This document shows positions 7,997 to 26,170 of a stretch of 27,538 bases of DNA, in pieces. Both the position numbers and the translations under genes were made by a program. Below the pieces are notes generated by a model. It was not told where the DNA came from and did not search any database. It saw nothing but the letters and a program-made list of their open reading frames with translations. Numbering within the stretch: position 1 is the stretch's first letter; every line of letters begins with the position of its first letter. This DNA comes from Promethearchaeota archaeon (lineage in GTDB: Archaea; Asgardarchaeota; Lokiarchaeia; Sigynarchaeales; SOKP01): contig JAUXAJ010000030.1 in the NCBI GenBank assembly GCA_030620005.1, positions 1-27,538 on the forward strand, written 5' to 3'.

Positions 7997-8947
7997 GTGA
8001 TAAAAATTACCGAGAAAATGAATTTTCTGTTTATAATAACAGACCAGCAGAGGAAAGATCACTTGAGTTGTTACAATGATAAAATGATTTTAAAAACACC
8101 AAATATAGATAAGATAGCAGAAAAAGGCGTTAAATTTACAAGATTCTATTGTAATAACCCAATTTGCATGCCTAACAGGAGTACCATGTATACGGGACAA
8201 TACCCATCAACCCATGGAGTGATATCTAACGGAAGAAATTTACCTCAAAATACCAAAACATTTGTTGATTTGTTATTAGAATCAGGGCAATATCATACTG
8301 CCAGCTTTGGAAAGATTCATTTGAATTATTTTGGAATTCCAAATAAACAATTTACTAATCCAATTGAAAGTCAAGAATTTGCCCAACCAGATAAATATCC
8401 TAAATTGACCAATTACGCGCCTTATTTTGGATTAGAAGAAGTTAAATTAGTATCAGGGCATGGCTTTTTATGTGGTCATCCTGACTACCTAAATTGGGTA
8501 AAATCAAAAATAGAAAACGACGATTCCTTAGGGAAACCGCTTCGCATGAGGCCAAGACATCCGTTAAAAAGCATTTATAATAAAATAACCGGAAGCTTTA
8601 TCCCGGATGAGTCTACTTTAAAATTACAGGTGATAAAGCATAAAGTGCCAGTGGAATTGTACTCAACGACTTTCGTGAAAGAATTTACTATTAATTTTTT
8701 AGAGAAATTTGCTGCTGGTGAATATACAAGAGAAAACTTTTTTGTTTTTTGTTCGTTTCCCGACCCTCACCATCCATTTTCGCCGCCTGATAAGTATTTT
8801 GGGATGTATGAACCTGAAGATGTGATTTTAACTGAATCTTTTAACGACAATCACGAAAAGAGTCCTCAATTCATGAAAAAGCATTATAATGAGACAATCA
8901 ATACCGATGGAACCGTAAAAGGTCTTTTCCCCCCCCTAAAAATATAA
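7997..8947 (+). CDS. Sulfatase, N-terminal part of a frameshifted gene
   Basis: This frame encodes the first 316 residues of a second sulfatase. It has MNFLFIITDQQRKDHLSCY (Ca-binding Asp), then NPICMPNRSTMYTG with the C-x-P-x-R modification site (CMPNR, 57-61; Asn replaces the common Ser/Thr), and GKIHLN. It also has FPDPHHPFSPPDKY, a segment common in heparan- and choline-sulfatase-like enzymes. The frame ends GLFPPLKI-stop directly after a run of eight C residues (8929-8936). The remaining sulfatase core continues in another frame from about 8935. The start is GTG at 7997, with AAGGA upstream, or ATG at 8018, which begins exactly at the conserved MNFLF. It probably belongs to the same functional group as the sulfatase upstream, though the two proteins are not close relatives. 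Confidence 0.85.
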   Translation: MIKITEKMNFLFIITDQQRKDHLSCYNDKMILKTPNIDKIAEKGVKFTRFYCNNPICMPNRSTMYTGQYPSTHGVISNGRNLPQNTKTFVDLLLESGQYHTASFGKIHLNYFGIPNKQFTNPIESQEFAQPDKYPKLTNYAPYFGLEEVKLVSGHGFLCGHPDYLNWVKSKIENDDSLGKPLRMRPRHPLKSIYNKITGSFIPDESTLKLQVIKHKVPVELYSTTFVKEFTINFLEKFAAGEYTRENFFVFCSFPDPHHPFSPPDKYFGMYEPEDVILTESFNDNHEKSPQFMKKHYNETINTDGTVKGLFPPLKI

Positions 8948-8952
8948 CAGAA

Positions 8953-9588
8953 ATGGATGCGAAACAAGTAATTGCTGCATCTTATGGGGCGGAAAAAATG
9001 ATTGATGACGCTGTTGGAGAGATTTTAGATGTTCTAGAAGAAATAGGACTGACAAATAATACAGTTGTTATTTTTACCACAGATCACGGTGAATTAGGTG
9101 GCGACCACAGGTTTTTCTTTAAGGGACCTTTTCTTTACAATGCCTTGGTAAACATTCCTTTTATTATAAAAGTACCTAACGGCATGAAAAATAAAACTAG
9201 CTCATCCTTGGCGAGCTCGATTGACATACCCGAGACAATTTTGGAATTAGCTAGCCTTCCTATCCCAGATAGCATGCAAGGAAAGAGCCTAGTTTCAATA
9301 TTAAAAGATCCAAATATAAATATAAACGAAGACATATATATTGAGATGGACGATGAGATCCTCGACGAAAAAACAAGGACTTTAATCACGGATGAGTGGA
9401 GGATCACAATTTTTAGAGAAAAAGAAAACGATGGAGAATTATACAATTTAAAAGACGATCCTAACGAAATGAATAACTTATGGAACGATAATGATTATAA
9501 AGATAAAAAAATGGAATTACTGATGGAATTGATTCGAAAATATCTAAAAGTTTACAAAAGTCCGATTGTTAGAGATTGCCAATTTTAA
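8953..9588 (+). CDS. Sulfatase, C-terminal part of a frameshifted gene
   Basis: This 211-residue frame supplies the second half of the sulfatase. VVIFTTDHGELGGDHRFFFKG contains the Asp-His metal ligands, and LYNLKDDPNEMNNLW is the typical C-terminal segment. It has no promoter or credible ribosome-binding site of its own. If the C run at 8929-8936 held nine (or six) C residues, the upstream frame would read through as PKNITEMDAKQVIAASYG into this one, giving a normal sulfatase of about 530 residues. It could be a disrupted gene, an indel in the assembly, or slippage at the homopolymer. All metal and modification residues survive when the two halves are joined, which argues for recent breakage or a sequencing error. 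Confidence 0.8.
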   Translation: MDAKQVIAASYGAEKMIDDAVGEILDVLEEIGLTNNTVVIFTTDHGELGGDHRFFFKGPFLYNALVNIPFIIKVPNGMKNKTSSSLASSIDIPETILELASLPIPDSMQGKSLVSILKDPNININEDIYIEMDDEILDEKTRTLITDEWRITIFREKENDGELYNLKDDPNEMNNLWNDNDYKDKKMELLMELIRKYLKVYKSPIVRDCQF

Positions 9589-24341: not shown

Positions 24342-25076
24342 TTAAATTAAAGTTAACGCGGCGTTTAGAGCTGCCAATCTTGCCTTTTTTGAGTCTCGTC
24401 CTAACCCTATAATTACAACGTCACCTTTTTCCAGATTTAAATTTTCTTCTTTAATTATATTTTTAAAATATTTTTGGACGTTCTCGTTTATTTTCATGTG
24501 TTCTTTATCGTTATCTGACATTAGTTTTAGGGGGAATTCAAATTTTGTTCCATCATAAACTAAGCACGAGGCCCCAGTACCATTTATTTTAATGGCAGCA
24601 TCTCTTTGAGCAATACCATTAGTTAATTCATTTGACGCATTTTTTACTAAGCAAAAATAAGGTTTTTCACTTTCAGATTCTATTGTAATGGCATTTAATA
24701 TCGAAAAATCTCCTTCTTTGATGAAAGGGATTTTCTTTTTAATTTTACTTAAATATTTTAAACCATTTTCCGTTAAAACATGTCCTTTTCTTTTGTTTTT
24801 TTCTCCTAAGACAGTTAGAAACCCCATTTTTTCGTTTAATTTCGTAATTAACGACCTTGAAGTTCCAGATCCAATTGATAACTCGTCTCGCAACCGATAT
24901 CGACCTATTCCATATGGATTTTCTTCAAAAATGAATAGTGCTAAAATTATATGGACAAAATCGAAGGTGGGCTTGATTGTTCCGCTGTTAAACATTTCTA
25001 TTAAATCTTCTAATGGATTTGGCATTGGCGGGAGATTATTTTCAGAATAATCAATATATTTGTTAATTAAACTCAA
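24342..25076 (-). CDS. Winged-helix protein with C-terminal DUF4443/DUF2111-like domain
   Basis: A 244-residue protein. Residues 30-110 form a winged helix (FDFVHIILALFIFEE, IGRYRLRDELSIGSGTSRSLI, GHVLTENGLKYL). The second half contains IAQRDAAIKINGTGASCLVY and ends VVIIGLGRDSKKARLAALNA, resembling archaeal DUF4443 / DUF2111 proteins of unknown function. A ligand-responsive regulator is likely, with the C-terminal domain sensing a small molecule; this is an inference. It precedes the JAMM gene by 22 bp, so it may control that operon. The start is ATG at 25076. Confidence 0.72.
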   Translation of the reverse strand: MSLINKYIDYSENNLPPMPNPLEDLIEMFNSGTIKPTFDFVHIILALFIFEENPYGIGRYRLRDELSIGSGTSRSLITKLNEKMGFLTVLGEKNKRKGHVLTENGLKYLSKIKKKIPFIKEGDFSILNAITIESESEKPYFCLVKNASNELTNGIAQRDAAIKINGTGASCLVYDGTKFEFPLKLMSDNDKEHMKINENVQKYFKNIIKEENLNLEKGDVVIIGLGRDSKKARLAALNAALTLI

Positions 25077-25238
25077 AACATTCAGATTTATAAATTTTAA
25101 TCATGAATGCAAATAAATAAAGTTATTTAGTCGTGATAATACTTATCCACTCCAAATAAATTAATGATCAAATAAAGTTCCTTCGGAAGAAATCGATCAA
25201 GATAATGAAATTGCTTTTAAAGAGTATAAATGACTCTG

Positions 25239-25264
25239 AAAAAAAATGTAAAAAAAAAAAAAAA
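25239..25264 (-). terminator. Oligo-T terminator after the histone gene
   Basis: On the minus strand a run of 15 T and then a run of 8 T, separated by ACA, lie about 65-90 bp after the histone stop codon. Archaeal RNA polymerase ends transcription at oligo-T without a hairpin. It would isolate the histone transcript from the winged-helix gene downstream. Confidence 0.55.
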
Positions 25265-25327
25265 TTTAAAATTGTATCGCTAATTTTATTTACGTCACCA
25301 AGTTGCGCGCAATTCGCTACGCAAGCT

Positions 25328-25571
25328 TTATTTGAAGTATTTAATTGCCAATAGTATGTCGTCCCGAGTTATTTTCTTTCTTTTAGCGTGTTGGGTCAAG
25401 GTTAGTGCTTGTTTTGTGAGTTTTACGGCACTGGTTCCCATCCAATCAACTAACTCGTCAACGGCATCACGAGCAACAATTTTAGCCAGTAATTAGGAAA
25501 ATCTAATTACTAAAAGCTCCGTTATGCTTCATGAGCCTTCTAATAGGACTCCAACTAATATATCCTCCCAT
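25328..25571 (-). CDS. Archaeal histone, interrupted by a 31-nt BHB-type intron
   Basis: Exon 1 runs from ATG 25571 and encodes MGGYISWSPIRRLMKHNGA, the alpha-1 helix region (compare 'PIxRIIKxAGA'). After 31 extra nucleotides the frame resumes as IVARDAVDELVDWMG, SAVKLTKQALTLTQHAKRKK and ITRDDILLAIKYFK to TAA 25328, which are alpha-2 and alpha-3 of the histone fold. The spliced product is 70 residues, the normal length. In the unspliced DNA the first frame ends at a TAG inside the insert, and the second has a TAA just before its start. Neither piece exceeds about 55 codons, so ORF callers miss it. GGAGG lies 13 nt before the ATG; the leader also contains ATG-ACC-TAA. Histones package DNA as dimers and longer polymers. 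A pseudogene is the alternative, but every other position looks intact. Confidence 0.85.
25482..25512 (-). other. Putative BHB intron (31 nt) in the histone mRNA
   Basis: The pre-mRNA can fold as follows: outer helix UAACGG/UUGUUG (three G-U), a 4-bp helix AGCU/GGCU, bulge UU|U on one strand and AA|AA on the other, and an inner perfect 9-bp stem AGUAAUUAG/CUAAUUACU with loop AUUUUC. Cutting after the second nucleotide of each bulge removes exactly 31 nt (25512-25482). The mature reading then is GGA GCU UUA AUU GUU (G-A-L-I-V). GCT also occurs on both sides of the insert, so a shifted cut would read G-A-K-I-V; both stay in frame. One bulge has four rather than three nucleotides. Confidence 0.78.
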
Positions 25572-26170
25572 TTTAGGTCATTCCTCCACTTTTTAATTAT
25601 TTTGATTAATTTCTTTAGTTTTTAATTTATAATAAACTATTGATACATTGTAAAATTTATAAGTTTATTATATGATAAATGTTCTTTCATTTATTTAAAG
25701 ATTTTGGTAAAAAGGTAATTTAGTTCAAGGAAAAACAAAAAGAATTCTTCGACAAAATTCCAAATTATTGAAATGATCGAGCTCGTGCAAGTTTAGGATT
25801 TATAGTAGAAATTTATATCTTGTTAAATCTTGGATTTATTGAAACGATAATCTTTATTTATATCTGTTAAATAACTAAATCAGTTGAATAATGTGAAAAA
25901 ACCGAAAATTTGATCAAATTCTGAGATGCTTGATCTTGATTTTTTTTAATATGAAGGAGTTAATAATTTTGATTTTTTCTGAGAAATAAAAACTCGGTAA
26001 ATAATTTTTTCGCTATCTAATATTTAAAATAAGAATTACTTTATATTTACATAAAGTATCTATGGCAAAAAATTTGACCTTGGTGAATAATCATTAAAAT
26101 TATCGAAAAATTTCAAGAAAGAATCGAAACAGCCTTTTTTAAAGGCCAATCCACAAAAACGAGTAAATGG
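25572..26170. other. Intergenic region, no confident gene
   Basis: About 600 bp, very AT-rich. It holds the histone leader and promoter (TTATAAAT-like sequence near 25625 on the minus strand). Around 25738-25880 there is a weak protein-like reading (DRARASLGFIVEIYILL) broken by stops, resembling a helical-bundle remnant. Close to the PAP2 gene the frame is open without ATG from about 26085. I see no RNA gene. Confidence 0.4.

Follow-up and report, generated by a model that had tools for sequence, protein, structure and literature searches.

Probable bulge-helix-bulge introns in the histone genes of Lokiarchaeia

A histone gene in the stretch of Promethearchaeota DNA analysed here (27,538 nt, hereafter the window) is interrupted by 31 nt that are very probably an archaeal bulge-helix-bulge (BHB) intron in a working gene. 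We consider this the best explanation because 16 further interrupted histone genes occur in related genomes, 18 of 19 inserts share the same pairing at their boundaries, the exons carry signs of selection and the other host genomes tested encode splicing enzymes. Cutting and joining of the transcript in living cells, with EndA as endonuclease and RtcB as ligase, are inferred from the genes.

An interrupted histone gene and its insert

The interrupted gene, a family A Lokiarchaeal histone, occupies 25328..25571 of the minus strand, with its ATG at 25571, its stop codon at 25330-25328, and a Shine-Dalgarno-like GGAGG upstream of the ATG (25583..25587, minus), a motif also found upstream of most other histone genes whose leaders were inspected. 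The first frame from this ATG (MGGYISWSPIRRLMKHNGA...) ends after 22 codons, and a second frame resumes 31 nt on. Exon 1 (59 nt, 25513..25571, minus) codes for MGGYISWSPIRRLMKHNGA and the TT of codon 20; exon 2 (154 nt including the stop, 25328..25481, minus) contributes the A of codon 20 and then IVARDAV...IKYFK. Excision of the BHB-type insert between them (31 nt, 25482..25512, minus) restores the frame and yields a protein of 70 residues, which matches the Pfam family CBFD_NFYB_HMF (PF00808, archaeal histone) over residues 8-66 with 36.7 bits, against a cut-off of 21.4. The preliminary description of this locus, a complete 70-residue histone encoded on the minus strand in two out-of-phase pieces, is thereby confirmed, its coordinates being correct to the base.

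Uninterrupted histones in public databases are up to 91% identical to the spliced product over 100% of its length; among the best 120 of 244 proteins, the ten top full-coverage matches (84-91% identity) are all uninterrupted, and several lower-ranked matches are labelled Lokiarchaeota or Promethearchaeota. Judged by its sequence, the predicted product is an Asgard (Lokiarchaeal) histone. The junction falls between NGA and IVARDA, both invariant in an alignment of 25 sequences (the window and 24 relatives), with no residue gained or lost; the junction residue itself is L, assembled from TT and A, and relatives have L, I, V or M there. Alternative junctions of the same length place Phe at this residue, and other excision lengths score at least 12 points worse. 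A search for the pattern of exon, gap and exon finds this one instance in the window, and 100 shuffles contain none.

The insert is predicted to fold into a hairpin of 9 bp (AGTAATTAG, loop ATTTTC, CTAATTACT; 25488..25511, minus); both this stem and the 31-nt length had been given correctly at the outset. Next to it, the AGCT at the end of exon 1 (25515..25518, minus) pairs with a GGCT in the intron (25484..25487, minus) by three Watson-Crick pairs and one G-U, giving a central helix of 4 bp with 4/4 positions paired. This helix is flanked by two 3-nt bulges, TTT (25512..25514, minus) and AAA (25481..25483, minus), with 2^1 cut sites: exon 1 ends [AGCT]TT^ and the intron ends [GGCT]AA^, followed by the A of exon 2. 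The predicted cuts, after the second T (25513/25512) and after the second A (25482/25481), follow a rule taken from passages of PMC2738675. The expectation that cuts after nucleotide 2 of each bulge would remove 31 nt and restore the frame holds, and they also regain the conserved residues exactly. Only 1 of 200 dinucleotide shuffles folds equally well (z -3.88), and shuffling only the intron letters gives z -4.12.

A 3 x 4 internal loop, which includes the 3' bulge, lies between the exon-side and central helices, and one of the four exon-side pairs adjoining this bulge is formed, so that the window motif falls outside the strict BHB form, hBHBh', HBh' being the relaxed type. Because the exon-side and central helices do not stack on each other, we class the motif as a relaxed BHB, a softer reading than the near-canonical one first proposed; a strict canonical form was also considered and dropped, the exon-side helix being no better than chance. 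PMC2738675 reports relaxed BHB forms for cbf5, and PMC12397907 reports them for some substrates of the endonuclease.

The histone gene has genes for DUF4443, a JAB protein, a proteasome subunit, S8e, HypA and SRP19 as neighbours. In the corresponding blocks of six relatives a family A histone also lies near DUF4443; it is uninterrupted in five, and in the sixth (G001) forms a tandem pair, one member of which has an intron. The histone and DUF4443 are co-directional in the window (24342-25571) and in opposite orientation in 6/6 relatives, which points to a local inversion or to a second copy; because of this difference from all six relatives, orthology by position is uncertain. Elsewhere in the window, a sulfatase-like gene on the plus strand (7997-8947 and 8953-9588) changes frame at a run of eight C. 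We considered 7997-9588 as a second intron case and rejected it: a frame change at an eight-C run looks like an indel.

Interrupted histones in other Loki-type genomes

A scan for identical exon ends separated by a longer gap, covering contigs of one genome per species for 84,980 species, returned one locus (L001), in the metagenome-assembled genome Lokiarchaeota Loki_b32; the same pattern scan of viral contigs gave no match. The insert of the L001 histone measures 30 nt and occupies the identical junction, and its sequence differs from that of the window insert; it too has an AGCU central helix, and its removal gives the same junction residue. An uninterrupted tandem copy lies 0.7 kb away. 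The Loki_b32 tandem copies (L044, 4039-5148, and L128, 1039-2148, both minus), one with and one without the intron, form a natural presence/absence pair.

A protein search of the 227 genomes of the phylum, of which at least 138 have a histone match, added two genomes (G123 and G127) with one interrupted gene each, every gene holding two 30-nt inserts at new positions and every insert having a single protein-compatible junction. We then define as Loki-type a set of 60 genomes, G001 and G099-G157 (59 genomes), the latter called so because of their histones and gene neighbours. The histone matches comprise 113 in 24 of the 59 genomes (all listed), 156 in the other 35 (150 listed) and 5 in G001; match rows were screened by eye and sums made by hand. 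An insert is present in 13 of 20 additional regions examined, and all 13 genes belong to families B-E. Altogether, 16 further interrupted histone genes occur in 11 of the 60 Loki-type genomes, among the matches listed, with 18 inserts of 29-34 nt at about nine positions in five paralog groups, two of the genes having two inserts. Together with the window this makes a full set of 17 interrupted genes and 19 inserts, from which one poorly fitting locus (L131) is kept apart. These genes bear out the initial suspicion that others of the kind may escape notice, and the comparison with related genomes proposed there found both uninterrupted relatives and interrupted ones.

Thirteen loci that are partial at contig ends (L039, L040, L041, L045, L060, L068, L073, L076, L119, L122, L130, L132 and L133) were left uncounted, as were L072 (an N at a critical place), L074 (a false match) and L075 (a fragment); L067 was counted despite its gene start lying beyond the contig end. 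Single-stop histone copies, namely L042 and three from 30 other genomes of the phylum, were rejected as introns, their span being equal to the coding length: L042 (361-549, minus), a member of family B, is open throughout but for one TAA and has no extra length.

Of four short histone rows rechecked, three are contig ends and the fourth is L131 (509-776, plus, in G114), a family C histone interrupted after MAKKVFAWS by about 58 extra nt near the N-terminus. No junction restores its conserved proline, and its central pairing reaches 4/4 only at a junction 3 points under the best; with it included, 18/20 inserts have 4/4 central pairing at the best-scoring junction. L131 may hold an odd intron or two introns, or be a dead copy.

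An assembly or sequencing artefact in a metagenome contig deserves next to no credence. L001 does come from a metagenome-assembled genome, but different inserts of the same anatomy recur in 11 further genomes, in one of them, Loki_b32, at the same gene block. Almost nothing speaks, either, for an intron of a different class, be it group I, group II or a self-splicing mini-element. Its frame-restoring excision would look identical at the protein level, but no Rfam family matches the window at the gathering score, and inserts of 29-34 nt are below the size of a group I or II core, which needs more.

Control families were searched in the same genomes. Among the matches listed, no such insert was seen in S8e (57 matches in 55 of the 60 genomes, the S8e of G102 being broken by contig ends), in HypA (58 matches in 54 of the 60) or in proteasome subunits (60 genomes), where two rows have a single in-frame stop. 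TruB_N, the cbf5 family, has no in-frame stop among the matches listed from 59 Loki-type genomes; all but two of these matches lie in open frames of 336-423 residues, and many consist of two pieces within one stop-free open frame. The 30 other genomes of the phylum (171 histone matches, summed by hand) hold no interrupted histone among the matches listed; three rows there have one stop and no added length, and the short rows lie at contig ends or inside a 492-residue frame. For the four control families compared, the excess of inserts in Loki-type histones is real, no such insert having been seen in these families, or in histones of the 30 other genomes, among the matches listed.

The inserts might instead mark pseudogenes, redundant histone copies broken by random small insertions, as the uninterrupted paralogs in the same genomes would allow; L131, with its missing proline, could be one. 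For the set as a whole we hold this to be highly improbable. The shared length, the central helix and the exact restoration of residues are unexpected from random insertions; the four control families of the same 60 genomes show no such insert among the matches listed; some inserts (L061/L062/L064 and L070/L071) are more conserved than fourfold sites; and dN is far below dS wherever dS can be estimated, G127 versus G123 (too few changes) excepted. Decayed exons in related genomes had been named as an observation that would speak against an intron; the exons show instead this excess of dS over dN, the too-close G127/G123 pair aside.

In detail, the 17 spliced genes compared with their nearest intact gene have dN of 0.018-0.167 and dS from 0.49 to saturated, values to which selection on the intact copy also contributes. 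Comparing interrupted genes with each other points the same way, for example with dN 0.05 and dS 0.64 for L061/L062 and dN 0.065 and dS 0.90 for L070/L071; the G127/G123 pair, with dN 0.024 and dS 0.046, has too few changes to judge. We regard these values as signs of purifying selection on the exons of interrupted histone genes.

Pairing at the insert boundaries and the splicing enzymes

Loci were chosen for an interrupted histone frame and not for the presence of a BHB; for each gene, the excisions yielding the best histone protein were enumerated, and those junctions were then checked for BHB geometry. The central helix is 4/4 paired at the protein-defined junction in 18/19 inserts, against a pooled background of 2.6% (5566 positions in the same genes), the remaining insert (G123 intron 2) having 3/4 pairs. 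Each insert has 1-10 protein-compatible junctions, and choosing among them favours the central-helix score; a hand calculation that allows for junction number and collapses related inserts into nine position groups puts the chance probability at roughly 4e-12 to 5e-10, varying with the representatives taken.

Among 14 representatives, the intron-side pairs next to the 5' bulge average 3.2/4 against a background of 1.5, a value reached by 0 of 20000 draws, whereas the exon-side helix (1.9 versus 1.6 of 4, p 0.14) is no better than chance; L058 and L063 have 4/4 exon-side pairs. The motif across the inserts is a relaxed form, because the intron-side helices are significant and the exon-side helix is not. 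Inner hairpins are significant over the same number of representatives (Fisher p 3e-11, mononucleotide shuffles); those of L001, L063 and L069 have p between 0.05 and 0.08, and for L064 (p 0.21) and L065 (p 1.0) the hairpin does not stand out. In 5/19 inserts the fold of intron and flanks is not better than shuffles (z -0.5 or above).

Short inserts of a narrow length range (29-34 nt) that mostly form hairpins would also suit programmed translational bypassing, known from T4 gene 60 and the mitochondrial byp elements; here the ribosome would leave the message at a take-off codon, skip some 30 structured nucleotides and resume at a matching landing codon. The window and 7 other inserts, however, have no phase-0 junction yielding the same protein, codons for the same amino acid stand on both sides in only 2/19 inserts (L067 and L069), and bypassing does not predict the 4-bp exon-intron helix with 2^1 bulges present in 18/19; we therefore regard it as very unlikely.

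Under BHB splicing, exon 1 of the pre-mRNA would pair over 4 bp with the intron's 3' end, beside a short intron hairpin, and the fold would expose two 3-nt bulges; a heteromeric EndA, the tRNA-splicing endonuclease, would cut after the second nucleotide of each bulge, the RtcB ligase would join the exons, and the ribosome would make the 70-residue histone from the joined message. Genes for these enzymes are present in other host genomes: 13/15 genomes searched, including 10/11 hosts, have two genes of the EndA family (PF01974), the exceptions being G123 (one) and G099 (none), and RtcB occurs in 3/3 genomes tested. Extraction gave 26 EndA-type ORFs, 13 with an EHS stretch, 11 without that His and 2 wrong ORFs, and one locus gave none. 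The His of the EHS stretch is presumably the active-site His of the endonuclease. Among solved archaeal splicing endonucleases, the EHS type best matches 3p1z (E 2e-35) and the His-lacking type 1a79 (E 8e-24). Following passages of PMC12397907, the two may be read as catalytic and structural subunits, respectively. Two different EndA-family subunits per genome, as would be expected of a heteromeric (alpha-beta)2 endonuclease, are thus predicted from these genes; PMC2738675 ties a two-subunit pattern to cbf5 pre-mRNA splicing. The making of histones from interrupted genes probably depends on tRNA-splicing enzymes. This dependence on EndA and a ligase would hold for the interrupted copies only: G001, G123 and G127, the other genomes with an interrupted family A gene, each have an uninterrupted family A copy as well.

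Evolution of the inserts and comparison with known introns

A tree of 64 histones, built on 71 columns and with many open forks and some long branches that the program flagged, shows five groups, each with interrupted members (A 4, B 3, C 4, D 3, E 3); support is good for B, D and E and not for A (89/76) and C (86/75). On this tree the interrupted label shows no clustering: it requires 16 changes, at least 8 of which fall on supported branches, and 421 of 500 shuffles need as few. The inserts of L061/L062/L064 and of L070/L071 have 1-2 differences in 29-30 nt, while fourfold sites differ by 31-50% (Fisher p 0.0005-0.009); because these inserts are almost unchanged relative to fourfold sites, the intron itself looks conserved. 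Conservation beyond fourfold sites was not seen for L061/L065, L062/L065 and L059/L067 (p 0.11, 0.29 and 0.78). L058 and L063 have near-identical exons (10 nt differences in 74 codons) and, at one site, unrelated inserts of 30 and 34 nt; near-identical exons around unrelated inserts at the same site suggest intron replacement or a second gain.

An intron in the cbf5 pre-mRNA was reportedly described by Watanabe in 2002. For newly examined cbf5 introns from Sulfolobales and Desulfurococcales, Yokobori (2009, PMC2738675) describes mostly unconventional BHB motifs, cut between bulge residues 2 and 3 and recognised by a hetero-oligomeric endonuclease. The histone inserts resemble them as likely BHB introns of a protein gene with a mostly unconventional motif, the same predicted cut and a putative hetero-oligomeric EndA, and also in their patchy presence, which that paper ascribes for cbf5 to gain and loss. 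They differ in gene and phylum, in their length of 29-34 nt, and in occupying many positions in five paralog groups with up to two per gene; and the cbf5 intron, unlike the predicted histone introns, is backed by cDNA. With archaeal tRNA BHB introns of the relaxed HBh' type they share a 4-bp central helix, 3-nt bulges, a short intron hairpin and a weak exon-side helix, but their exons form an mRNA, which lacks the anticodon arm that provides the exon-side helix in a tRNA. The HVO_1309 mRNA of Haloferax volcanii is, according to passages of PMC7714728, likewise an mRNA cut by the splicing endonuclease; its sites lie in the untranslated leader (5' UTR), whereas the histone introns lie inside the coding region. 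The same passages name cbf5 as the only case reported so far of a BHB intron in a protein-coding region.

Passages of PMC10919886 describe at least five recognisable histone paralog groups in Lokiarchaeia, and a correspondence with the five families found here is plausible. The main text of that paper has no word beginning intron, splic, frameshift or pseudogene, and in a second paper on prokaryotic and Asgard histones the main text likewise has no word beginning 'intron'. Among the titles and starts of abstracts listed, in a literature with few subscription papers or bioRxiv preprints, introns in archaeal histone genes are not reported, nor are BHB introns in Asgard protein genes; to the extent of such titles and abstract starts in the open literature, this agrees with the original statement that no BHB intron was known in a histone gene.

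We see about an even chance that BHB introns settle preferentially and repeatedly in the histone genes of Lokiarchaeia, with many separate gains in all five groups, two introns in some genes and exchange of one intron for another at a given site; the tRNA-splicing machinery would then gate part of the histone supply of an Asgard archaeon. If true, these would be, going by the literature found, the first multi-intron protein genes and the first protein-gene intron hot spot in archaea, with short BHB introns recurring in chromatin-protein genes of a phylum close to eukaryotic origins. The genomes also supply natural presence/absence pairs, among them tandem copies of which one has the intron and the other lacks it, and it can now be tested how archaeal introns are gained, moved and kept, whether gene callers undercount histones in Asgard genomes and whether EndA activity affects the supply of histones.
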